DNA from: Herpetosiphon giganteus
Lineage (GTDB): Bacteria > Chloroflexota > Chloroflexia > Chloroflexales > Herpetosiphonaceae
Assembly (NCBI RefSeq): GCF_016907925.1
Contig: NZ_JAFBCZ010000017.1
Coordinates: 62,001 to 126,000, forward strand
DNA: 64,000 nucleotides
Direction of reading: 5' to 3'
Made by a program: the position numbers and the translations under genes. Positions 24,222 through 53,326 of the stretch are shown one piece after another. The notes beneath the pieces were generated by a model. The model was not told where the DNA came from. It did no database searches and was given only the letters and a program-made list of their open reading frames with translations. Each line of letters starts with the position of its first letter. Positions within the stretch are counted from its first letter, which is position 1.

Positions 24222-24736
24222 TTACAACTGGTTGCGTAAGGCGGCTAATTGTTGTTCAGCTAGGCTAATCCAATTAGCAAAATATTTTGTTCGTAGGATT
24301 TTGATATTAGCCTTAGCTTGCTCAAGAACGACTCCAGCTGCGTCAACCTGCTTGTTTACTTGGAAAATATCATACAAATACATTAAATTTAATGTCATTG
24401 CGTGTAGATCATTATTGGCTCGTGTATAGGCTAAAGCTTCGTTTATTATCTCGATTGCTTCATCAGTTCGATTAATTGCGCGTAATGAAGCTGCATAATT
24501 GCCTAAAGTGATTGATAGTTTTTGATAATCGTTGACTAAACGAAAAGCATTAATTGCCTTTTGATAAATCGGTAACGATTTCGCTGGTCGGTCACCTAGA
24601 CGGAAAATGTTACCGATAAGCCACCAACGTGTTGAATTACTGTTTGCCACTGGCCATGCTGAAGCAGCCGCTGCGGGTTTTGCAGCAATGTTTGAATGTT
24701 GGTTGGTGTCCATTGCAGGCTCAGGTCGATTTTCAT
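24222..24736 (-). pseudogene. Decayed TPR protein gene (internal deletion/frameshift)
   Basis: Two pieces in different frames. The upstream piece reads from ATG 24736 as MKIDLSLQWTPTNIQTLLQN and onward to a stop 47 codons later. The downstream piece, in another frame, has typical tetratricopeptide helices: SLPIYQKAINAFRLVNDYQK, then DEAIEIINEALAYTRANNDL, ending at 24222. The switch lies near 24625-24645. The likeliest history is a large internal deletion in a TPR regulator, leaving head and tail. A -10 box TATAAT sits just upstream. The tail alone could be read as a 163-residue protein, but its first 30 residues look like an accidental frame. Confidence 0.6.
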
Positions 24737-27644: not shown

Positions 27645-27666
27645 ATTTAAGCTACGCTCACCCCAA

Positions 27667-27698
27667 ACCCTCGTCCGTCCAACGGGCGAGGGTCTTTT
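27667..27698 (+). terminator. Intrinsic terminator of the galE-thioesterase operon
   Basis: ACCCTCG / CGAGGGT outer stem with CCGT-CCA-ACGG inside, then CTTTTCGTTTT. Confidence 0.75.
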
Positions 27699-27812
27699 CG
27701 TTTTAGGCGGAAGCGATGTGATTATGTAACATTCTGGTTTGGTATACCGTACAGCTTGGCAAGCATCGTATTTGATTGCTGATTAAACGATTAACGCATA
27801 AAGGGGTTTTGT

Positions 27813-28769
27813 ATGGACGAGGAATGGGATATTCATAGTAGTCGCCGACCAACGATTGGCCAATATATTGGTCTTGCCAAACGCGAGTATGAAGCTGCTA
27901 TGCAAGCCCTCGAACCTGATCCTAACGCCGATGCCTTGACATACCTCGATCAGCAATGGGCTAAAGAAAGTGTCAAATATACGGGGATGCAAACATCACA
28001 CACTGGCATGCCAGTGCAGCAAAGTCCAATGGTCTTGATTGTATTGTGTAGCGTGTTTGCAAGTGTTTTGGTCGCGACGATTGTGATTGGCTTTCGATCG
28101 CATATGCCACAACTCTATTGTTTTAGCCTGTTTTCGTTGTTGTTTGTGGTAATGTCTGGGTTTGGTATTCGTAACCAATTGCGTTTTGCAACGGCTAAAA
28201 AACGCTATTTAGCCCAACGAGCTGCATTAATCGCCCAATTAGGCATCAAACCACAAGATGTTCCGCGCGCGCCAGTGATTGAAAAACCACTGATCCATAA
28301 ATCAGTAACAACCTCTGCGGCAAATCAAATTCGCCAATTGCAATATCATTATCATAGTATCAATGATCAAGAACAATATCGGCGATCAGTCTTGAGCATT
28401 ATTGCACAAGCACCCGAACATGAACGCCAGTATCTCAAGGCGCTTGCTGCCATTGAATCGGAATGGGTTCAAGAACGGCTTAAATATGTGAGCTTTAAAA
28501 ATGGTCGGCGTGAGCAACGAGCTAATCGTCCAACGAATGTATGGTTTGTTGGTGGCATCTGTGTCTTTTTTGCTACTGCTGGGATTATGCAGGGGTTGTC
28601 GACGGGCAATTGGGTCAATGTGCTTGGAGCGCTTGTAATTCCGACAATCCTTGCCAGCATAACCGTGTATTCAAATCAACGGGTCAAAGCCTATCGTGCT
28701 TTAGAAGAAAAGTATGCTGAACGGCGCAACCAACTCCATGGCCGCTTTCGCGATCAAGCTCCATTTTAA
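27813..28769 (+). CDS. Internally duplicated four-helix membrane protein, paralogue 1
   Basis: 318 residues; not a family I can name. Two similar halves. Each half has a charged stretch ending in LDQQWAKESVKYTGM (first half) or LAAIESEWVQERLKYVSF (second half), then two hydrophobic helices (about residues 73-118 and 243-285), then a charged helix with RYLAQRAALIAQL or EEKYAERRNQLHGRF. The signature 'LEPDPNAD' near residue 33 is repeated word for word in the next gene. AAAGGGG precedes the ATG. First of three tandem paralogues. Confidence 0.8.
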   Translation: MDEEWDIHSSRRPTIGQYIGLAKREYEAAMQALEPDPNADALTYLDQQWAKESVKYTGMQTSHTGMPVQQSPMVLIVLCSVFASVLVATIVIGFRSHMPQLYCFSLFSLLFVVMSGFGIRNQLRFATAKKRYLAQRAALIAQLGIKPQDVPRAPVIEKPLIHKSVTTSAANQIRQLQYHYHSINDQEQYRRSVLSIIAQAPEHERQYLKALAAIESEWVQERLKYVSFKNGRREQRANRPTNVWFVGGICVFFATAGIMQGLSTGNWVNVLGALVIPTILASITVYSNQRVKAYRALEEKYAERRNQLHGRFRDQAPF

Positions 28770-28804
28770 ATATTGATAAATTTACATAATTAACATCTAA
28801 ACCG

Positions 28805-28945
28805 AAACCTGCCTGTTAGCAATGCGTAGAGCCTAACTGTACTGGTTCATTGGGTTGGCAACCTGCATGCCCTCACCCCCAGCCCCTCTCCTGTCGAAGG
28901 GGCGAGGGGGGAAACCGTCGTTTATTACACCTAACAGGAAGGTTT
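28805..28945. mobile_element. MITE-like element with terminal inverted repeats
   Basis: AAACCTGCCTGTTAG (28805-28819) and its reverse complement with one mismatch (28931-28945) bound 141 bases with no gene. Inside is a family B palindromic repeat (28866-28910: CATGCCCTCACCCCCAGCCC onward). It sits between paralogues 1 and 2. Terminal repeats plus internal dispersed repeat suggest a small non-autonomous insertion; no target-site duplication was clear. Confidence 0.5.
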
Positions 28946-28998
28946 TTCGTGGTTAAATAGCTAAAAATGAAATTTGTTTGAACATTAAGGAAGCTGTA

Positions 28999-29925
28999 AT
29001 GGCAACATTAAATGAATTTTCCGCCATGCTTGTCGAAGCTTACAAAGAACAGCTTGCAATTGAAAAATCGCTAGAACCAGATCCCAATGCCGACCCTGTG
29101 ACTCAGCTTGACCAAGCATGGCGCAAAGAACGCACAAAATATGTTGGCATGATGCAGAGTAATAGTCCAATTTCCGTCGCAGGGTCATTAATTATTATAA
29201 CCTTCTCCTTATCATTTTTAGGGGTTGGGGTTATGTTGTGGCGCGAAGCCAACGCGCTGCCTGATTGGTTTACCTATTTTCCTGCAATCTTTTGTATTGG
29301 CTGTAGCCTCTTGTTTCTTTTGGCGCTGCCAAATGCGATTAAAGCAGTGCTTGGCGAACGCCGCTATCGGCAAAAACGCGCTCTGTTGGTCAAGCACTAT
29401 GGCGACACCAATCCAGGCGCAGAATTGCTGCTTTCAGGCAAGCGCTTACGCTATACTTGGCCAAAAAAGAGCCGTTCGGAAGCTGAAAGCCGTTTTCACG
29501 AGCTGCAAGCAGAATACTACGATTCAGGCCGTCGCGACGAAGCCTATTATGCGACGCTGCAACGCTTTATTGACCATGCTCCAGCAGCCGATCAGCGCTA
29601 TCTCAGCGAATTAGCTCAATTAGAAGAGCGCTGGCTTAAAGAGCGTTTTGGCTCGTTGCGCTATGTTAATCAGCTGGAAACCCAGCAAGCCCCGAGTGTC
29701 TTTGGCGCTTGGTTTATCTTTGGGCTAGGGCTGGGATTGATTGGCTTTGGGGTTATGCTGCTCAATCGCAGTGCTTCATTATTGTATCCGCTGCTCTGCG
29801 CTGCTTTTGGGCTGTTTATGCTGCTTGGCTCGTTTTCAATCCGCAAACGGGCAATTGCGCTCATTGCCTCAGAGCAACGCTATTTTGCCCAACGCCAACA
29901 GCTGAGCCACGATTATGGCCGCTAA
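28999..29925 (+). CDS. Internally duplicated four-helix membrane protein, paralogue 2
   Basis: 308 residues from ATG 28999 (AAGGAAG upstream). Same plan as paralogue 1: SLEPDPNADPVTQLDQAWRK, two hydrophobic helices, GERRYRQKRALLVKHYG, a 90-residue polar middle, then a second half with LAQLEERWLKERFGSLRYVN, two helices and SEQRYFAQRQQLSHDYG. The repeat 'AExRYxxxRxxL' closes both halves. Predicted membrane protein with charged cytoplasmic helices; function unknown. Confidence 0.8.
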   Translation: MATLNEFSAMLVEAYKEQLAIEKSLEPDPNADPVTQLDQAWRKERTKYVGMMQSNSPISVAGSLIIITFSLSFLGVGVMLWREANALPDWFTYFPAIFCIGCSLLFLLALPNAIKAVLGERRYRQKRALLVKHYGDTNPGAELLLSGKRLRYTWPKKSRSEAESRFHELQAEYYDSGRRDEAYYATLQRFIDHAPAADQRYLSELAQLEERWLKERFGSLRYVNQLETQQAPSVFGAWFIFGLGLGLIGFGVMLLNRSASLLYPLLCAAFGLFMLLGSFSIRKRAIALIASEQRYFAQRQQLSHDYGR

Positions 29926-29967
29926 ATAATTGGATATTGTGCGATTGCTTGAAATGAGGATTAATCT

Positions 29968-30912
29968 ATGGCGCAATCAACTCCAATAACCGACCATGCT
30001 GCTCGTTTCGAGCACAATCTAGGAGCGCTTGATGCCTTAGATGCGCTTGATCAGCAATGGGAGCAAGAACGGGTTACGTATGTTGGCGAATATAATGCTG
30101 ATCCGCGGATTAAGCTTGCCAGCATTCCAATGATTGGCGCATTACTCTGGATGTTGCTGATGTTTGGGGCAATGGCCTTGCGCGAGGCAATTAACCAAGT
30201 TGATCTGCGCTTTTTGGGGGCAACGCTTGTCGCAAGTTGTTTTTGTGTTGTGCTGCTATTCGGATTGCGGGCGGGTATTCGTTTGCGCTTGGCTGAACGC
30301 CGCTATCTTAAACAGCGAGCTGCATTAGCCAAAGCACTGAATCGGCCAAGCAAACCGCAGCCATTAACACCCAAACAACGCATCTCTTCGCCAACCAACC
30401 AGCAATCCAGCCAATGGACTGCTGCCGAACAACAAATCTATGCGCTGCAAGAACTGCATTATGCTGAGCCAAAACGTGATAAACACTATCACGCACGCAT
30501 CCAAAGGATTATTGTTGATGCGCCAAAAGCTGAGCAAGCCTACCTGACTGAATTGGTGCAATTAGAGCAGCGTTGGCTCAATGAGCGGTTGCGCTATCAG
30601 AATAGCAAACCATATTATAGCGCTCATCCGCAGCATCCCGACGAAGATGGCGTGTATCCAATCCGCTTTGAGCTGAACAATTGGGTTGCTTTATTATCTG
30701 GGCTTGGGGTAGTGGGCTTGGGCATTTGGCTTGCTTGGAACGATGCAAACGCGTTGTTAAACGGAATGGCCTTCGTTTCGCTGGGAGTTGTTTTTATGCT
30801 GGTAGCATGGGAACTGCAGCGCACAAAGCCAAATCTCTACCAAGCAGAACAGCACTATTTTCAGCAACAAGCTGCCTTGGCCCAAAAATATGGAAAATAT
30901 CGAGAGCTATAA
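29968..30912 (+). CDS. Internally duplicated four-helix membrane protein, paralogue 3
   Basis: 314 residues, GAGGA upstream, 42 bases after paralogue 2. LDALDQQWEQERVTYVGEYN, two helices, AERRYLKQRAALAKAL, polar middle, LVQLEQRWLNERLRYQ, two helices, AEQHYFQQQAALAQKYG. It lacks the LEPDPNAD motif of the first two but keeps the duplicated LDxxW...ER..Y and A-E-x-Y-x-x-x-R/Q signatures. Function unknown. Confidence 0.8.
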   Translation: MAQSTPITDHAARFEHNLGALDALDALDQQWEQERVTYVGEYNADPRIKLASIPMIGALLWMLLMFGAMALREAINQVDLRFLGATLVASCFCVVLLFGLRAGIRLRLAERRYLKQRAALAKALNRPSKPQPLTPKQRISSPTNQQSSQWTAAEQQIYALQELHYAEPKRDKHYHARIQRIIVDAPKAEQAYLTELVQLEQRWLNERLRYQNSKPYYSAHPQHPDEDGVYPIRFELNNWVALLSGLGVVGLGIWLAWNDANALLNGMAFVSLGVVFMLVAWELQRTKPNLYQAEQHYFQQQAALAQKYGKYREL

Positions 30913-31003: not shown

Positions 31004-32185
31004 ATGGATGATAGATTACCTGGCTTAATTGATCAGCATGATTCGATGCATAAGCGTCCCAAGCCGTTGAGCACGTGGTATCGCGATTTGATGTTGGCTG
31101 CTCAATTGGGAGCTGAAGAGCATTGGGCTGGGCCTGATGGGCAATCGATCAAGCAAACGATCGTGCAAGGCATAGCCCAGTTGCTTGATGATCGTGATCA
31201 TGCGCAAACAGCCCTTGCCTATCGCCAAGGCCACACGATCGAACCAACGCCCTTGTTGGTTGAGCAGCGCCAAACTGCTACCGAATTATTGGCTGCTTTG
31301 GGTGATGCCCGCTATCCGGTTAGCATTGAGCAATGGCAGCAAGCGACGAGCGACTTAACCAAGCAATTTGGCCGTGAGGGTGGGCATTATTGGCGCTATG
31401 TGCCTGCTGCGCGCTATCAGGTTGGGGGCTGGGAGGTTGGCCAAACGCCAACAAGCGTGGAGCTTCAGCCCTATTGGGTCGGGCGCTTGATGATTACGGT
31501 TGAGCAATATCGTCGCTTTATGCAGGCTGGTGGCTATGCTAAAGCTGAATGCTGGAGCAGCGCTGGTTGGGCTTGGAAAGAAACATATCAACGAGCTGAG
31601 CCAGAATGGTGGGAAAGCCAAACCCACCCAGAAGCGGCGAATCAGCCAGTTTATGGGGTGAGTTGGTACGAGGTGTTGGCCTATTGCAACTGGCTAACTC
31701 AGCAACTCGCGCCCGTATTGCCGCAGGGCTATGAGGTTTGTTTAGCGAGTGAGGCCGAATGGGAAGTTGCCGCCGCTTATCCGGCGCAAGGCCAGCGCCA
31801 GCGCTCCCCTTGGGGTGATCAACCAGCTACGCCAGAGCACGCAGTCTATGCTTGGAGCGAGGCGCAGCGGCCATTGGCAGTTGGTTTAGGGTTGCTTGGC
31901 CAAGCAGGGTGTGGAGCGCTCGATTATGTTGGCAACCTCTGGGAATATACGTCAACAATCTATCAGGCAGCAATTGAGCACGACCAATCAGCTCCTGGGT
32001 TTGTGGTGTGTGGTGGTTCGTACTATGGAACCAGCGCCGATATGCTGTGCGCAGCGCGCTACTGGACAACTCCGGTCGTCAGCAGTGATAGTCGGGGATT
32101 TCGCTGTACGCTCGCTCGTCGTGGCTCAAACGAAGGACACTCGAGGCGAAACGATAAACGAGCGGGGAATGAATTTCAGAATTGA
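31004..32185 (+). CDS. FGE/sulfatase-modifying-factor-like domain protein
   Basis: 393 residues. From about residue 130 to 385 the sequence follows the formylglycine-generating-enzyme fold: ELQPYWVGRLMITVEQYRRF, PVYGVSWYEVLAYCNWLT, LASEAEWEVAAAY, GNLWEYTS, and a GGSYYGTSADMLCAARY end. The two catalytic cysteines of true FGE are not both present, so sulfatase maturation is unlikely. The first ~110 residues (TWYRDLMLAAQLGAEEHW, then AALGDARYP) resemble the segment that links NACHT-type ATPases to FGE domains in Chloroflexota signalling proteins, suggesting a stand-alone remnant. Role unknown. Confidence 0.75.
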   Translation: MDDRLPGLIDQHDSMHKRPKPLSTWYRDLMLAAQLGAEEHWAGPDGQSIKQTIVQGIAQLLDDRDHAQTALAYRQGHTIEPTPLLVEQRQTATELLAALGDARYPVSIEQWQQATSDLTKQFGREGGHYWRYVPAARYQVGGWEVGQTPTSVELQPYWVGRLMITVEQYRRFMQAGGYAKAECWSSAGWAWKETYQRAEPEWWESQTHPEAANQPVYGVSWYEVLAYCNWLTQQLAPVLPQGYEVCLASEAEWEVAAAYPAQGQRQRSPWGDQPATPEHAVYAWSEAQRPLAVGLGLLGQAGCGALDYVGNLWEYTSTIYQAAIEHDQSAPGFVVCGGSYYGTSADMLCAARYWTTPVVSSDSRGFRCTLARRGSNEGHSRRNDKRAGNEFQN

Positions 32186-32480: not shown

Positions 32481-33494
32481 TTATGAACGCTTAAGTTTAT
32501 TGAGCATGCGCATCGCTCGGCCATTATTAACCGCGTTGAGGCGTTGCTCAAGGTGTTCGAGGTATTGATTTTTAACTTCAAGTGTGGCTTCAAGGCGGCG
32601 AATATAATGATTCATGCTTTGAAGTTGTTTGGCAATCTCGGCATGATCGGCCTCGAACCAAGCAAGTTTTTGGCTGGTTTGTTCAAGCTGGGCTTGCAGT
32701 TCGGCGTTATGACGGCTTTGGGCATTGCGCGAGGGTTTGGCTGCATAGATCGTCAGAAACAAATACTCTGTTGATTCATCGCTATACAACACTTCAAAGC
32801 CCGCTTTTTCCAAGACCATCGTTAAGGTTTCAGCAGTATAGTGGACGGGATGCGAGGCACAAAAAATATGCAAGCTATGGCCGCGGCGCAGATATTCATC
32901 GGCAAAGCTGTAGGCGGGAACTTGAATTGCCAAAACGCCATCGGGCGTGAGCAAATCGTAGAGTTGTTGCAGCATCTGGACTGGCTGATGCAGATGTTCG
33001 ACCACATGCCAACAGGTAATCAGATCATACAATTGCCCTTCTGGCAAGGCTTCGAGATTGGGATAAATTGGAAAGCCAAAGCGTTCGCGGGCCGCTGCCG
33101 CCGAAACCAGCGATAATTCCACCCCGCTTGGCCGCCAGCCGCGGCGAGCTGCTGCCGCCAACAAATAGCCGCGATTACAGCCAACATCGAGAATCGAACG
33201 CGGTTTGAGGTTGGTCATTGTTTCAAGCCAGGCAATGATCTCATCGCGGTCGTCCACGGCTTGGGCCTGTTGCTCAGCATCGTAATCATAGACATCGCTT
33301 TGATCTTCGAGCATATGAATGCCTGCTAAGCTTAGGCGTGGATTCTGGTAGACAACCGAGCAGCCAAGGCATTGATTGAGCGTTACGCCTATTTCAAGAT
33401 GTGGTTCTGGGTAATGGGCCACAAAGCGCGCCTCTGGGTGCTGACAGATAGGGCAGGCATTGATCGATTCGATTGGGAACGCTTGAGTCGTCAC
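32481..33494 (-). CDS. SAM-dependent methyltransferase with zinc-ribbon head and coiled-coil tail
   Basis: 337 residues. N-terminal CPIC ... CLGC (residues ~15-44) resembles the zinc knuckle of sugar C-methyltransferase-like proteins. SAM motif I is ILDVGCNRGYLLAAAARRG, followed by ITCWHVVEHLHQP (motif IV region). The last ~80 residues are a heptad-rich coiled coil. Divergent from a glycosyltransferase and a sugar-phosphate transferase, so methylation of a surface glycan or its lipid-linked precursor is a fair inference. Confidence 0.82.
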   Translation of the reverse strand: MTTQAFPIESINACPICQHPEARFVAHYPEPHLEIGVTLNQCLGCSVVYQNPRLSLAGIHMLEDQSDVYDYDAEQQAQAVDDRDEIIAWLETMTNLKPRSILDVGCNRGYLLAAAARRGWRPSGVELSLVSAAAARERFGFPIYPNLEALPEGQLYDLITCWHVVEHLHQPVQMLQQLYDLLTPDGVLAIQVPAYSFADEYLRRGHSLHIFCASHPVHYTAETLTMVLEKAGFEVLYSDESTEYLFLTIYAAKPSRNAQSRHNAELQAQLEQTSQKLAWFEADHAEIAKQLQSMNHYIRRLEATLEVKNQYLEHLEQRLNAVNNGRAMRMLNKLKRS

Positions 33495-33611
33495 AGCACA
33501 ATCCTTTCGCTAGAACATTGCATGGCGCATCGCCTGGGATGCTGAGTGCTTGCCCATTATACCAACGCTGATTGTTACGCAAGCGATACAATTGCGCTTG
33601 ATATTATGCAG

Positions 33612-33617
33612 TATAAT
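33612..33617 (+). promoter_or_regulatory. -10 box just upstream of the GT2 start
   Basis: TATAAT, consensus, ending 9 bases before the ATG at 33627. Transcription would start within about 3 bases of the codon, so the mRNA would be leaderless. No convincing -35 at the standard spacing. Confidence 0.5.
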
Positions 33618-33626
33618 TGGCACGCT

Positions 33627-34547
33627 ATGAAACATATTGCTGTTGTGATTCTTAATTTCAATTCGGGCGATGTATTGAAACCTTGTTTAGCTTCATTGGC
33701 TGAGCAAGATTGGGATGGTCGGCTTGATGTCTGGGTGGTTGATAATGCATCAGCCGATTCCAGTGTGGCGATGGTGCGCGAGCAGTTTGCTTGGGTGCGC
33801 CTCATTGCATCGCCAGAAAATATTGGTTTTTCTGCGGGCAACAATCTCGCCTTGCGCCAGATTTTGGCCGAAACGCCAACGCCTGAGGCGGTTTTGGTGC
33901 TCAACCCCGATACAGTTGTGCCAAGCAATGGTATTTCTGGCTTGGTTGCGGCCTTGGTTGAACGACCAAAAGCGGGGATTGTCGGGCCAAAATTGGTGCT
34001 AGCCGATGGCTCGCTCGACCTTGCGTGTCGGCGTTCGTTTCCCTCTGCCGAGGTTGCGCTTTACCGCATGATTGGCTTAGCGGCGCTGTTTCCGCGCTCG
34101 CCGCGCTTTGGCCGCTACAATATGACCTATCTTGATCCTGATGTGACGACCGAAGTCGATTCGATTGTTGGCGCAGCAATGTTGTTGCGCACTGAAGTCT
34201 TGCGCGATGTGGGCTTGCTCGATGAAGCCTTTTTTATGTATGGCGAAGATCTCGATTGGTGTTATCGCACCAAGAGCTATGGCTGGCAAGTTTGGTACGA
34301 TCCACGGGTAACCATTTTGCACTATAAACGGGTTTCGAGCACGCGCCGCGCAGTGCCCTCGATTCGGGCATTTTATGATGCAATGCGAATTTTTCATCGC
34401 AAGCATTATGAGGCGACGACACTTGCACCGCTCAATTGGTTGATTTACCTCGGCATTCGATTAAAAGAATGGCAAGCGTTAGTGCGCAATCGATTGCGTC
34501 CGTTAGCCTCTCGGCGAGCAATGCATGGCAACAACAAGAATGCTTAA
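33627..34547 (+). CDS. Family 2 glycosyltransferase (rhamnosyltransferase-like)
   Basis: 306 residues from ATG 33627. IAVVILNFNSGDVLKPCLAS and VWVVDNASADSSVAMVREQ are the start of GT-A family 2 enzymes, VLVLNPDTVVP holds the DxD-like donor site, and FFMYGEDLDWCYR is the catalytic ED region. Earlier in-frame starts exist, but this is where family members begin. Adds a sugar to a polysaccharide repeat; donor unknown. Overlaps the next gene by 23 bases. Confidence 0.88.
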   Translation: MKHIAVVILNFNSGDVLKPCLASLAEQDWDGRLDVWVVDNASADSSVAMVREQFAWVRLIASPENIGFSAGNNLALRQILAETPTPEAVLVLNPDTVVPSNGISGLVAALVERPKAGIVGPKLVLADGSLDLACRRSFPSAEVALYRMIGLAALFPRSPRFGRYNMTYLDPDVTTEVDSIVGAAMLLRTEVLRDVGLLDEAFFMYGEDLDWCYRTKSYGWQVWYDPRVTILHYKRVSSTRRAVPSIRAFYDAMRIFHRKHYEATTLAPLNWLIYLGIRLKEWQALVRNRLRPLASRRAMHGNNKNA

Positions 34548-35961
34548 TCAAACAACCGTCGTTACGCGCCGCTATCGTTACGTTGTGCTATTGCTGCTGA
34601 TTAGCTGCGATATTATTGGCGTGAACGGTGGTTTTTTCTTAGCCTACTACCTTAATCTCGATGCAATTGTGCGCGAATTTCAGCCGCCAAGTGCTGGCCA
34701 AGTGCTGCTGACCTTGGCGGTGCTGAATGCCTTGTTTGGCACGCTGTTTACGGCCAACGGGCTGTATCGCATGCAGCGTGGTGGCTCGCGCATCGACGAA
34801 GGCTACCATATTTTTCGGGCAATTGCGATTGGCACGGTGATGTTTATCGCGCTTAATACCGTGTTCCCGTTGCTCAACATCACCACCCAAACCTTGGTCT
34901 ATGGCTGGATTTTGGCGATTATTCTGACCACAATCTTGCGTTTGCTTTATCATCAAGGCATTGGCCAGCTGCGGTTGCGCGGCTATGATACGCGGCGGGT
35001 GTTGATTGTTGGCGCTGGCGAAATTGGCCAATTGGTCTATCGCCAGATGAGCAAAGTGCCAACCTTGGGCTACCAAATTATTGGCTTCCTCTCCAACGAC
35101 ACGCCGACTGGTCAGCAAGTGCTTGATGATGTGCCAGTTTTGGGCAAACGCGCTAAACTTGGCTTAGCAGTGCGCACTTGTGCGATCGATGAAGTGATTA
35201 TTGCCGTTAGTGGGGCATCGTATAACGATATTTTTGCCTTGGTTTCACAAATCGATGATGAAAGTGTGGCGATTAAAATTTATCCCGATGCCTTTCAATT
35301 AATTACCAATAATGAAGTGTCGGTTGGTGAATTGAGTGGTTTGCCGCTGATTACCTTGCGGGCTGTGCCGCTTGATCGCCAATTGAACCGCACGATTAAG
35401 CGCTTGCTTGATGTGGCAGTTTCGGCGACGGCCTTGATTATGCTTTCGCCGTTGTTGCTGTTAATTGGCATTTTGATCAAAATTGATTCGCCAGGCCCAG
35501 CGTTTTTTATTCAAGAGCGGGTTGGCCGTGATGGTCGGCCATTTAAGATGATCAAATATCGTTCGATGCGAACTGATGCTGAAAAAATGGGCAGCTGGAC
35601 AACGCCGAATGATGATCGGCGTACCCGTTTGGGCACCTTCTTGCGCCGCTTCTCAATCGATGAATTGCCGCAATTTATCAATGTGTTGTTGGGTGATATG
35701 AGTGTGGTTGGGCCACGGCCTGAGCAACCGCGCTATGTGGCCCAATTTAGCGAGCAAATTCCACGTTATATGCATCGCCATCGCGAGAAGGCTGGTATTA
35801 CTGGTTGGGCACAAGTTAATGGTTTACGTGGCGACACCTCAATCGAGGAGCGGACGCGCTACGATTTGTATTATATCGAAAACTGGTCGCCCATGTTTGA
35901 TATTAAAATTATTATTCGCACTGCCTACGATGCGATTCGCGGCAATGAGAATGCCTACTAA
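34525..35961 (+). CDS. Polyprenyl-phosphate sugar-1-phosphate transferase (WcaJ/EpsE-like)
   Basis: 478 residues. Four or five N-terminal helices, a central Rossmann-like domain (VLIVGAGEIGQLVYRQM), then the catalytic domain beginning KRLLDVAVSATALIMLSPLL and containing GPAFFIQERVGRDGRPFKMI, SIDELPQFINVLLGDMS and VGPRPEQPRYV, the hallmarks of initiating glycosyltransferases. It would load the first sugar onto undecaprenyl phosphate for exopolysaccharide. A second possible start is 34540. Confidence 0.92.
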   Translation: MATTRMLNQTTVVTRRYRYVVLLLLISCDIIGVNGGFFLAYYLNLDAIVREFQPPSAGQVLLTLAVLNALFGTLFTANGLYRMQRGGSRIDEGYHIFRAIAIGTVMFIALNTVFPLLNITTQTLVYGWILAIILTTILRLLYHQGIGQLRLRGYDTRRVLIVGAGEIGQLVYRQMSKVPTLGYQIIGFLSNDTPTGQQVLDDVPVLGKRAKLGLAVRTCAIDEVIIAVSGASYNDIFALVSQIDDESVAIKIYPDAFQLITNNEVSVGELSGLPLITLRAVPLDRQLNRTIKRLLDVAVSATALIMLSPLLLLIGILIKIDSPGPAFFIQERVGRDGRPFKMIKYRSMRTDAEKMGSWTTPNDDRRTRLGTFLRRFSIDELPQFINVLLGDMSVVGPRPEQPRYVAQFSEQIPRYMHRHREKAGITGWAQVNGLRGDTSIEERTRYDLYYIENWSPMFDIKIIIRTAYDAIRGNENAY

Positions 35962-48540: not shown

Positions 48541-49197
48541 ATTGGTGGAAATCGTAAAGGAATGTGGAGAAGATTTCTGCCATTAATTTAGCACAATAGG
48601 CATCATGATTCGGCTAAAGTGCGATCGCCAAAACGTTTGCCCTAGCAATACTTTCTTGATTACATGAGATTTTAGCAATTGTATAGCCAAAAAATGTTTA
48701 AAAAGATACATAATGATATTAGCAAGCTTGGCCAAAAAGACAGCTGTTCCCAAAACCTTAAAAATTTCGGGAAAAACAAGATATAGCCAATAGGCCAATA
48801 AGTAGTTAATTTTCTATCGATGACAACACCATTTTCTTTAATAATACTTAATGCGCGGTAGTAGTAGCATGTACTAGTAACAACATTGGAAAATTTCGTG
48901 ATAAACCGAACATAGATTATTCGGATAATAAAGGCTACTATAAAGCATTTGGTGCGGAATAAACGATATTGAATAGGCTGGATGGGGATTTTTGGTGAGG
49001 ATGTACAAAAACCATCCTGATAAACGTCTGCTTATTCTATTGTACAATTAGAGCGTCTTATGCTAGCATAGAATGGGTTTTATCAAGGCTCGTATCGTTA
49101 TCGCATATCCAGTTTGTTTTTTAGGTTTGAAACAAACGAGGATTTTCAATGAGGGCTTTGTTTAACCCAATTCCTCAATTTTTTAGGGAGATTAGTG
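48541..49197. other. 657-base AT-rich region before VCBS paralogue 2
   Basis: Much lower GC than its surroundings. A 71-residue hydrophobic minus-strand reading (48583-48798) exists but lacks a ribosome site and recognisable sequence, so not called. A short hairpin AGGATG...CATCCT lies near 49000. Probably promoter plus decayed DNA. Confidence 0.5.
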
Positions 49198-51018
49198 ATG
49201 GAAAAACCATTCCAGCGTATGATCACGTCCTCAATTTTCGGTTTGGTGGCTTTAGGGCTTGTTGGTGGCATGATTGTTAGTCAAAGTACCTCTGCCGCTC
49301 AATTACCACCACCAGCGGTTGATTTTGCTCCCTCAGTTCATTACCCGACCTCGTTTACTAACCGTGAAATTGTTATGGGCGATTTTAATGGTGATGGCTT
49401 GCAAGATTTGGCAAGCATTAGTTGGGCTGGTAAAACTATTAGTATCAACCTCAGCAATGGCGATGGAACGTTCGAGCAAGCTGTCAATTATATGACAGGT
49501 TTAGGTCAATCATGGGGCATTGACACTGGTGATATTAACAATGACAACAAACTTGATTTGGTCGTGGCAAGTCGCCTTAGCAACGCTTTTGTAACCTATC
49601 TTGGCGTTGGTGATGGAACGTTTCAATATCATAGCGCCGTAACTGCTGGCGGAAAACCAATGAAAATCCGCTTGGGTGACTTCAATAAAGACGATAACCT
49701 TGATCTTGCGCTAAGTTTTGAGTCAAGCAATAGTATTGGAATTCGTTTTGGACTTGGAAATGGGAATTTTCAAGCTAATCAATATTATACGGTTGGCTTT
49801 GGGCCACTAGGCATTACTACTGCTGATCTTGATCGTGACAGTAACTTAGATTTGATTGTGAGTAATGCTAGCGATACAACAATTTCAGTGCTGAAAGGTT
49901 CGAATAACGGAATATTTGCCGCAGCTGTTAATTATACTGTTGGCACAACCCCACAAGAAAGTACTGTTGCCGACTTCAATGGCGATACCTTCCCTGATGT
50001 TGCAGTTGCTAATTGGGGTTCAAGTAGTATTACTATTTTCCGTGGGACTGGAACTGGCGCATTAGTGGCGCATTCGACCATTCCGAATGTCTCTACAGGC
50101 AATGATATTGAGTCAGGTGATATTAATGGTGATGGCCTGATCGATTTAGCGATTACCAATAGCCAACCAAACTCTGGTCTTACAACCGTGAGCGTATTGC
50201 TGGGGCAAGGGAACTTGAATTTTGATGCACCAGTAAGCTTTGCAGTAGGTGCCAATCCTGTATCGCTGGTGCTTGGGCATTTCAATAACGATAGCTTGCT
50301 TGATTTGGCAACATCCAACTATCATAGCCATGATATGTCGATTCTTTTGAGTCGCTCGATGGCAACCGCAACGCCAACCGCAACGCCAACGAACACGCCA
50401 ACCGATACTGCAACGCCAACGAACACGCCAACCGCAACGCCAACCGCAACGCCAACGAACACGCCAACCAATACTGCAACGCCAACGAACACGCCAACCA
50501 ATACTGCAACGCCAACGAACACGCCAACCGAAACGCCAACGAACACGCCAACGAGCACTGCAACGCCAACCGAAATTCCAACCAACACGCCAACGATACA
50601 ACCAAGCGTGACCCCAGGCGTTGGCAACTCGCTGACCTTCCTGCCGTTGGTGACGAATCAGCGCCAGATCTTTCCGGTTGTGATCAATCCGATTGCTCAA
50701 GCCTTGATTCCGATTACTCAGCAAGGCCAAATTTATTACACCACGACCGTGACGATCAATGGCCCATTGCCAGCGACTGGGCGTTTCTATCTCTCGTCGC
50801 GCCGCGATGCGGTGGCCGAAGTACGGGTTGATGATCGCATGACGGTTTGGGCCAATAATCAAATTTTGTATGAAAACACGTTAACTACGCCGCAAATTGT
50901 TGCAGTTTCACGTAGCGAGTTGCAAACATGGCTCGATCAACCGCTGACGATTACTTTCCGCGATGTGGCTGGCTCGGTCTATGGCAATAGCGAAGTCTGG
51001 TTAATTTGGCTTCCCTAG
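49198..51018 (+). CDS. Secreted FG-GAP/VCBS-repeat surface protein, paralogue 2
   Basis: 606 residues from ATG 49198 (AGGGAG upstream). Signal peptide, seven VCBS blades ([32 protein letters not shown], and so on), a longer Thr-Pro-Asn linker (about 80 residues, coded by 50365-50595), and the same C-terminal domain as paralogue 1 with only a handful of changes. Propeller similarity with paralogue 1 is modest. Exported; function unknown. Confidence 0.88.
50365..50595. repeat. Tandem repeats encoding the Thr-Pro linker of paralogue 2
   Basis: Degenerate 12-, 18- and 30-base units built from CCAACGAACACGCCAACC. Coding on the plus strand; prone to expansion, which explains the longer linker. Confidence 0.85.
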
Positions 51019-51085: not shown

Positions 51086-53326
51086 TTATTCGACGATCAA
51101 GGTTTCGTAGGCCGAGTAGACATTGCCATCAAAATCTTCGGCAAAGAAGCCAACCAAGTAGTTGCCTGCTGGCGCTGGCTCAAGCTTCCATGTAAAGTTA
51201 TCCGAGCCAAAGACGAAATCTTCGCCTTCGTAATTGACGAATTCGCTCTCGCCAGTTTGCTGCGATTCTTCGAGCCAAGTATCGAGCAGCACAAATTTAT
51301 CGCCGGGCTTGGGGTTGATTTCGCGTAACGAGCCGGTATCTTCCTTGCCCGTGTAGCCCAGCACTTGCACCAACTCGCCATTGCTGAACAACAACAAGGC
51401 GCGGCGGCTCTTTTTGCCTTTGGCAGTCGTATACATGCCTTCAACCGTGTAGGTTGCCTCTTCTGGCGATGCGCCATAATCTTCGGGACTGAACAAGGCT
51501 AAGCTGGATTGAGTTTCGTTCTGCATGGCAAACACTTGGGTGTCCCACTCGAACTCAATATCAATCGTCGAGGCCGCACCCCAATCGGGATAAAATACCC
51601 CGCCAATTTCACGGGTTTGCTCAGCATCAAGATAATCCATATCCAACACGCGAATTGCATCGGATTCTTGATCGTAGTAGCCGATGAAGATATAGACAAA
51701 GGCAATATTATCGCCAGTGATGCTGCTGTTGAGCACAACTGGCCGATCGAGGCTGGCGGTGGTGGATGAAAGCTGAATTGGCGCAACCGTAATTGGCTCA
51801 GCGCCAGGAGCTTCGACCTCGCCAACATCGACTGGCTCAGGCGTTGGCCGGCGTTCGATGGTGGCGGTTGGTTGTTCAACGGTGGTTGGCAAGGGCTTTT
51901 TGGCGTATTGGAAGGCCAAAAATTCATCCCACAGCGAATCATTAACGAAGCTTACTGCAACCGTGTTATACGATTTATAGCCAGCATCGGCGCTCGTGTA
52001 GAGCTTCGAATTGGGAAAGTGAATCGAAATGCCAGTTGCGCCAGCTTTTTCATCGCCATGTTTTTCTTCGATCAAGCTCTTGTCGATGGCCTTAATCAAG
52101 TCGTCGGCGGCTTTATTGACGCTTGGCACATTGACTTTTTGCTTGAGCAATTGGGCAAAGTGGCCAAGATCAATATAGGGCTTGGGCTGATCGCTATCAA
52201 AAACGCTCTCGAAGGCTTGGGTATAACGGCGGGCAGCAGCAATATCTTTGCGTTCGGCCTCGGCCAAGGTTATCACCAAGCGATCAAGGGCATCGATAAC
52301 CGCTGGCAATTTGCCCAAATCAACCGCCGTCAGCGTAATGGCCTTACGCTCTTGCACTAACACTTCTTCGGCAGAGACCTCGCCATCGAAGTCGTAGGTA
52401 CGCGAAACATACTTCGCCCGCGCATCGTCATCGAGAATTTGTTGATCTTGCTCGATGTAACTATCGACGATCGCCCGCGAAAGCTCAGCGCCATCAATCT
52501 CGGGGCTATCGGTTAGGCGACCAAGAATCGCGGCATAGGCCCAACCAAGCGATGGCTCGACCTCTTGCGAGGCCACTGCATAGCGGGCATAGGGCGCAAT
52601 CGCGCTATACACTTCAACATGGCTCATCAAACAGGCATCAAAGCCAATCAGTTCGAATTCGCCAATTCCGGTTTCGGCGATGATATGTTCAAAAGCTTCG
52701 CTCATTTCCATTAGAAACAGCATATCGCCAAAGCTCTCGGCCAAGGGAATATCGTGGCGACCCAAAGTTGAAGGTTCGGGGTCAGTCCAGCCACCAGGCC
52801 AGCCCGAGCCATGATCCGACATAATCAGCACATATTTATCCGAGGGATAGGCTTTGGCGGCCCATGTGACAAAATCGATCAAGGTATCGGCATCGGCCAT
52901 GTTTTGCTCGCCAAGGTCGGCAAGTTCCTTGGAGTTCATTTGCTCAAGGTTGTCGTCTTGTTCGATGTAAAAGCGTTTGGTGCTTGTCCAATCGCCATCG
53001 CCATCGTAGCCACCATCGTAGCGATCCATTTGGGCGACCACGCGCACCCGATCGGTCGAGCCAACCAATTCGGCCTCGTTGAGATCGTTGAGCATATCTT
53101 CCTCAAGAATCTCATCGTCGGCATCGGAGTAGAGCATAATCAGCCAGGTCTGATCATCGCGGCCAGCGGCGGTGCGGGTTGGGGCGGCAGGTGTGGCTTG
53201 GCCAGCAATCGGAGTGCGTTTTGCCACCGGAGTTGGTTCGGAGAGATCGGCACAAGCGGCTAAGAGCAAGAGTAAAACGAAGCTAAAACGCGTCAAACGC
53301 CAGCGTCGCGGCGCAATCTGCTGCAT
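51086..53326 (-). CDS. Clostripain-family (C11) cysteine peptidase, lipoprotein
   Basis: 746 residues, AGGAGT upstream. Lipoprotein signal with LLAAC lipobox (Cys25), then a Thr-Pro linker. The caspase-like domain contains TWLIMLYSDADDEILEEDML, the catalytic His in VLIMSDHGSGWPGGW, and catalytic Cys in LIGFDACLMSHVEV, the C11 dyad. After residue ~470 comes another linker and a ~220-residue beta-rich C-terminal domain. Likely a surface-anchored Arg/Lys-specific protease, activated by autocleavage in known members. Convergent with VCBS paralogue 2. Confidence 0.92.
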   Translation of the reverse strand: MQQIAPRRWRLTRFSFVLLLLLAACADLSEPTPVAKRTPIAGQATPAAPTRTAAGRDDQTWLIMLYSDADDEILEEDMLNDLNEAELVGSTDRVRVVAQMDRYDGGYDGDGDWTSTKRFYIEQDDNLEQMNSKELADLGEQNMADADTLIDFVTWAAKAYPSDKYVLIMSDHGSGWPGGWTDPEPSTLGRHDIPLAESFGDMLFLMEMSEAFEHIIAETGIGEFELIGFDACLMSHVEVYSAIAPYARYAVASQEVEPSLGWAYAAILGRLTDSPEIDGAELSRAIVDSYIEQDQQILDDDARAKYVSRTYDFDGEVSAEEVLVQERKAITLTAVDLGKLPAVIDALDRLVITLAEAERKDIAAARRYTQAFESVFDSDQPKPYIDLGHFAQLLKQKVNVPSVNKAADDLIKAIDKSLIEEKHGDEKAGATGISIHFPNSKLYTSADAGYKSYNTVAVSFVNDSLWDEFLAFQYAKKPLPTTVEQPTATIERRPTPEPVDVGEVEAPGAEPITVAPIQLSSTTASLDRPVVLNSSITGDNIAFVYIFIGYYDQESDAIRVLDMDYLDAEQTREIGGVFYPDWGAASTIDIEFEWDTQVFAMQNETQSSLALFSPEDYGASPEEATYTVEGMYTTAKGKKSRRALLLFSNGELVQVLGYTGKEDTGSLREINPKPGDKFVLLDTWLEESQQTGESEFVNYEGEDFVFGSDNFTWKLEPAPAGNYLVGFFAEDFDGNVYSAYETLIVE

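Follow-up and report, generated by a model that had tools for sequence, protein, structure and literature searches.

Membrane proteins of the SLATT type share a simple plan, in which a hairpin of two transmembrane (TM) helices is flanked by charged helices. Sections of PMC11237479 and PMC3581485 describe the combination of SHOCT domains with TM hairpins as an established arrangement. In those sections, PMC3581485 describes the SHOCT domain and reports that initial experiments gave no support for its oligomerisation, and PMC11237479 proposes, on the basis of prediction, a role for SHOCT-like domains in tethering proteins to the inner leaflet of the membrane. In the limited literature collection searched, no work was found on Herpetosiphon in connection with either SHOCT or contractile injection, and none of the Herpetosiphon phage-tail literature, as judged by title, dealt with the P1-P3 locus considered here. 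To our knowledge, no strain-recognition system has been described in Herpetosiphon, a predatory filamentous genus. The parts of PMC6210107 that describe H. llansteffanense do not mention the locus.

The window, which is the whole stretch of 64,000 nucleotides of a Herpetosiphon genome analysed here (G000:C17:62001-126000), contains three adjacent open genes, P1, P2 and P3 (Table 1). As the first-pass annotation had claimed, their products are mutually paralogous, with pairwise phmmer E-values of 1e-20 to 1e-32. The P2 protein used in the analysis (P0002) was read from 28996, and therefore carries one extra leading V as compared with the product starting at ATG 28999. The nearest named relative of the window genome is H. 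llansteffanensis, with 84-90% identity in P1 and P2 and ~70% in P3. The motif LEPDPNAD is identical in P1 and P2 of the window genome, also as claimed, and P3 has no exact copy of it. As the motif is intact or nearly so in most P1 and P2 orthologues, it is ancestral, and its origin by a recent exchange or gene conversion between P1 and P2 was ruled out.

Table 1. Features of the P1-P3 locus and its surroundings. Coordinates are those of the window, except for the contractile-tail cluster, which is located in other genomes.
Feature	Position	Strand	Description
Tail-cluster junction	27645..27812	.	~170 bp here; ~17-kb cluster in H. aurantiacus, G002 and G003
P1	27813..28769	+	318 aa, four-helix membrane protein, two units; orthologues in 6/6 Herpetosiphon genomes
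P1 TM1-TM2 hairpin	28032..28169	+	Residues 74-119, from hydropathy
P1 codons 223-294	28479..28694	+	Loop, TM3 and TM4; excess strain divergence in 4/4 pairs, read as a candidate exchangeable cassette
P2	28999..29925	+	308 aa from ATG 28999, two units; direct orthologue in 4/5 other Herpetosiphon genomes
P3	29968..30912	+	314 aa, two units; orthologue in 4/5 other Herpetosiphon genomes, absent from G003
FGE-sulfatase-domain gene	31004..32185	+	Between P3 and methyltransferase gene; at this site in the window genome only; outside the family
SAM methyltransferase gene	32481..33494	-	Next right-hand homologue in 6/6 genomes; Pfam match on H. aurantiacus orthologue; outside the family
Glycosyltransferase and sugar transferase genes (presumed)	33546..35961	+	Constant right-hand neighbours in 6/6 genomes
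Contractile-tail cluster	L147:2614-19345; L148:2864-19604; L149 (reverse strand)		

P1-P3 define an unnamed membrane family, and the earlier statement that no named family has this pattern was upheld, since curated families matched P1-P3 and their relatives only below the cut-off. The DUF2207_C (PF20990) scores were 16.8 bits for P1 and 12.7 bits for P2 against a cut-off of 33, with a best E-value among the 19 family members of 5e-4, and the TIGR04222 scores were 18.5 bits for P3 (E 0.0013) and 16.5 bits for P1 (E 0.0049) against a cut-off of 43, P2 giving no match to the latter model. The weak matches to both models lie over the helix-hairpin region, those to DUF2207_C occurring in 15 of the 19 members at E <= 1; the scores given here are far under the cut-offs, and the matches cover hydrophobic segments. 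No significant match was obtained among PDB sequences. Relatives were absent from viral contigs, from phages (query P0002) and from plasmids (query P0004).

The claim that each protein is an internal duplication was confirmed by profile alignment. Half profiles built from the 19 family members, N halves versus C halves, aligned with an hhalign E-value of 1.1e-14 and a score of 79.5, as compared with a best score of 27.7 (E 3.1e-5) among 14 controls (1 reversed, 10 window-shuffled and 3 fully shuffled). At Z = 5000, the C-half profile found all 19 N halves with E <= 0.0036, and the N-half profile found 18 of the 19 C halves with E <= 0.0011, the remaining one having an E-value of 0.098. Furthermore, a profile composed of the C units and a single-unit relative only, hence without any N half, retrieved 9 of the 19 N halves when whole genomes were searched (E 4e-9 to 6e-4).

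Each unit begins with a charged helix having invariant or nearly invariant L, E/D, W and Y residues, continues with two membrane helices, and ends with a return helix in which E, Y, R (in the N unit) and L are conserved. This anatomy agrees with that drawn in the first-pass annotation in that four hydrophobic segments are present in 19/19 members and that amphipathic charged helices flank the paired membrane helices. The A-E-x-R-Y pattern given there is present but looser than claimed, the C half reading LEEKYAERRNQL in P1 and AEQHYFQQQAAL in P3, and of the suggested scaffold or channel it is the scaffold-like anatomy that finds support. In all 19 members, the net charge is +3 to +7 after TM2, +1 to +5 after TM4 and ~0 in the outer loops, and from this positive-inside pattern both termini should be cytoplasmic. 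In medium-confidence AlphaFold2 models (pLDDT 74.4 and 79.6, with pTM of only 0.43 and 0.52), a helix is followed by a TM helix and then by a second TM helix that runs on into the return helix, giving a predicted stalk. Foldseek comparison of either model with the PDB gave no match at E <= 0.001, and VIA-align of the single-unit model returned generic coiled-coil hairpins, the best Z of 9.0 lying within the tool's warning range for helical bundles.

The only credible relative outside Herpetosiphon is a single-unit protein of 144 aa (P0004) encoded by G007, a genome of another genus in the same taxonomic family. It was found by both half profiles (E 3.9e-8 for the C unit and 1.5e-6 for the N unit, Z = 100000). 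The N-terminus of P0004 matches SHOCT (PF09851) with an E-value of 8.4e-5 and 22.6 bits, under the Pfam gathering cut-off of 27, and this match precedes the membrane hairpin. In contrast, the Herpetosiphon proteins are double, occur in tandem and show no SHOCT signal, SHOCT being absent among the 25 of 51 Pfam families listed for the 19 members. The C-unit helix pair aligned to SHOCT in the expected register with an hhalign score of 11.58, inside the range of 60 shuffles (maximum 11.66), and 142 of 500 shuffles scored as high as the alignment of the C-unit profile with P0004 residues 1-44. Hence, a SHOCT domain in the Herpetosiphon units is unsupported, as the scores are no better than those of shuffles. 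A helix pair is placed at the SHOCT-equivalent position of the unit in the model.

Relatives were sought in sets of 100, 158 (class), 301 and 400 (phylum) genomes, and matches were obtained in 7 of the 158 class genomes and 11 of the 400 phylum genomes. The double-unit protein is encoded at one site in all six Herpetosiphon genomes, in 3, 3, 3, 3, 5 and 2 full copies, and was not found outside this genus among up to 400 Chloroflexota genomes. Conservation across the order, which had been raised earlier, was thus not borne out, the family being restricted to the genus, apart from the single-unit protein of a sister genus (G007). The four extra phylum matches (G393, G405, G418 and G458) had similarity in membrane segments only, the aligned part including neither the W nor the AExxY motif. 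A match in G047 was rejected, as its open frame is small and for the most part covered by a longer frame on the opposite strand, and a 107-aa hairpin protein and a second weak match in G006 were inspected and dropped as relatives. Further weak matches to the C-unit profile, at E 0.4-1, were seen in G003, G004 and G008.

The N units grouped together with modest support (0.67) in a tree built from 38 units and the single-unit protein, and groups corresponding to P1, P2 and P3 recurred within both the N and the C units. This topology fits a single fusion followed by gene copying. Genome G003 has only the P2b type, without a direct P2 orthologue. In G002, an 83-aa P1-like fragment (L024:9523-9774) adjoins a P2-type gene, left over from earlier copying or loss in the array. 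A GC-rich palindromic element that resembles, by eye, a dispersed repeat is located between P1 and P2 (28860-28925). A promoter scan was uninformative, giving fewer sites than were found in shuffled sequence.

The surroundings of the family were checked for constant neighbours, and in 6/6 genomes these include genes for GalE and a thioesterase on the left and, on the right, the methyltransferase gene followed by two genes whose products we take to be a glycosyltransferase and an undecaprenyl-phosphate-type sugar transferase. No toxin, partner or defence gene was found that consistently adjoins P1-P3. Between the thioesterase gene and P1, three of the six genomes carry the contractile-tail cluster, which encodes a sheath, a tape-measure-like protein of 1216 aa, a hub, Phage_base_V, PAAR, gp25, Baseplate_J and an H-type lectin; in H. 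aurantiacus, 102 bp separate its last gene from P1. No capsid gene was seen among the Pfam matches of the cluster. The H-type lectin gene varies between strains, with an identity of 0.77 between H. aurantiacus and G002. A Baseplate_J homologue is absent from the window genome, G004 and G005 (among these H. llansteffanensis and H. geysericola), and also from G006-G008. As only half of the family-bearing genomes include the cluster, it is not constantly co-encoded with P1-P3.

The locus diverges between strains in a mosaic manner. As compared with H. llansteffanensis and H. geysericola, the flanking genes of the window genome are 94-99% identical and P1-P3 48-90% identical. Against H. geysericola, nucleotide identity falls from ~0.94 to 0.54-0.69 over P1-P2, is 0.80-0.89 in P3 and exceeds 0.9 beyond, and synonymous divergence is ~1.2 over P1-P2 versus 0.2-0.3 in the neighbours. 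Counterparts were found for 50 (H. llansteffanensis) and 46 (H. geysericola) of 60 open frames, and among the window proteins with at least 4 predicted TM segments P1-P3 have the top three dN/dS values, of 11 and of 10 proteins, respectively. The whole-gene dN/dS values of P1-P3 are below 1, so that they do not demonstrate diversifying selection on amino acids.

In P1, a divergent block was detected in each of the four strain pairs tested (0/300 permutations in each case), at codons 223-264 between the window genome and H. llansteffanensis, 229-258 between H. aurantiacus and G002, 223-282 between H. aurantiacus and G003, and 229-294 between G002 and G003, the last three pairs sharing genomes and not being independent. 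The flanking codons remain similar around the block in all four. For G002 and G003, nucleotide identity in 60-column windows is 0.30-0.42 in the block, as against 0.80-0.95 ahead of it and 0.88 beyond it, and synonymous divergence reaches 2.35 there versus 0.42 in the cytoplasmic parts. Point mutation under relaxed constraint does not account for synonymous divergence so sharply confined to one block. A frameshift as the origin of the block was considered and rejected; a blastn search (word size 7) with the G003 block gave no nucleotide match in the other loci. Between H. aurantiacus and G002, the divergent block in P2 (codons 163-228) lies outside the membrane part, and P3 has only a weak one (codons 19-60, 5/300 permutations). 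No significant block was found in P2 or P3 between the window genome and H. llansteffanensis, or in P3 between the window genome and H. geysericola. Weak blocks are also shown by neighbour genes, namely the sugar transferase gene (4 and 5 of 300) and that for GalE (3/300, the strongest control). Segments of the P1-P3 genes thus seem to have passed between strains, and this suggests a variable target for recognition by the part that lies in the membrane. Such exchange is not unique to the family, since 49195-51018 and 24222-24713, genes with no more than one predicted TM segment each, diverge as much as P1-P3.

The explanation tentatively favoured is that P1-P3 are a cytoplasm-facing membrane scaffold with hairpins for variable recognition, serving immunity, exclusion or self-recognition. 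Two copies of one unit would have fused to give an inner-membrane protein specific to Herpetosiphon, and tandem copying of the fused gene would have followed. Each unit would start with a charged cytoplasmic helix, L-x-x-L-E/D-x-x-W-x-x-E-R-x-x-Y, leading into a two-helix membrane hairpin, and the return helix, A-E-x-x-Y-x-x-x-R-x-x-L, is predicted by the medium-confidence models to pack onto the first helix as a cytoplasmic antiparallel stalk. The termini and charged stalks would then be in the cytoplasm, with only short loops outside. The stalks would represent the conserved, probably assembling part and the membrane hairpins the replaceable one, the TM3-TM4 hairpin of P1 possibly acting as a cassette swapped between strains. 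On this view, the likeliest mode of action is that of a scaffold anchored in the membrane, the variable hairpins of which would contact a partner, itself variable, within the bilayer or at its surface. A protein of immunity, exclusion or self-recognition would be expected to work in this way, and the fixed site, variable copy number and exchange-prone locus fit such a function. If the membrane hairpin were indeed the exchanged specificity part, recognition diversity would reside inside the bilayer, which would be unusual as compared with an exposed domain. In a more specific and doubtful version, the array would be a self-recognition or immunity locus in which a conserved cytoplasmic stalk bears the TM hairpin as an exchanged specificity cassette. 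The left border of the array would in that case be a presence/absence site for a contractile-tail weapon, against or with which the array would work. Regardless of any role in recognition, the locus presents a family that has had no name, the relative with a single unit, and a site of variation that it shares with a contractile-tail cluster.

The main alternative, which is possible though rather unlikely, regards P1-P3 as a scaffold, structural or regulatory, that serves the adjoining envelope-polysaccharide genes, with membrane helices so weakly constrained that their fast change means little. The constant right-hand transferase genes would suit such a scaffold, as would conserved cytoplasmic helices combined with free membrane helices and dN/dS below 1. 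However, weak constraint explains neither the synonymous saturation in one sharp-edged block nor a copy number of 2-5, and the neighbour genes are far better conserved than P1-P3. Another proposal is that of a PSP/LIA-like envelope-stress component, in which a SHOCT-type bihelix would anchor proteins at the membrane. The SHOCT match of P0004 and the inner-leaflet anchoring proposed in the cited sections of PMC11237479 point in this direction, but SHOCT is undetectable in the Herpetosiphon proteins and genes for PspA, Toastrack or a regulator were not seen beside P1-P3, and this proposal is considered improbable.

The presence of the tail cluster directly upstream of P1 in three genomes is what would be expected if P1-P3 were its accessory, active in holin-like release or in immunity to sibling tails and orphaned where the cluster is missing. 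The strain-variable lectin gene is consistent with this, and PHROG 1350 (phage holin) gave weak partial matches over TM segments of P1 (E 0.018) and P0004 (E 0.038), neither significant. These matches, however, reflect membrane-helix similarity only, and a Baseplate_J homologue is lacking both in three of the six family-bearing genomes and in G007, the bearer of the single-unit relative; a tail accessory is accordingly regarded as distinctly unlikely. It is very improbable that P1-P3 form pores or channels as SLATT-like defence effectors. The two-TM hairpins with flanking charged helices do resemble the SLATT plan, and DUF4231 matched a single one of the 19 members (E 0.0078), but no gene for a partner sensor is present, and PADLOC defence protein models gave no family for P1-P3 at E <= 10. 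Furthermore, P1-P3 stay at the same position in all six species, which typical defence genes do not.

Of the two other strongly divergent loci in the window, 49195-51018 is a gene for a protein of 588 aa and has the highest dN/dS in the window, with an identity of 0.55 and a synonymous divergence of 1.1 versus H. llansteffanensis; the gene next to it (51086-53326) is 99% identical in that species. The gene at 24222-24713, with a presumably TPR-like product of 163 aa, is 62% identical to a 785-aa counterpart in H. llansteffanensis and may be a truncated remnant.
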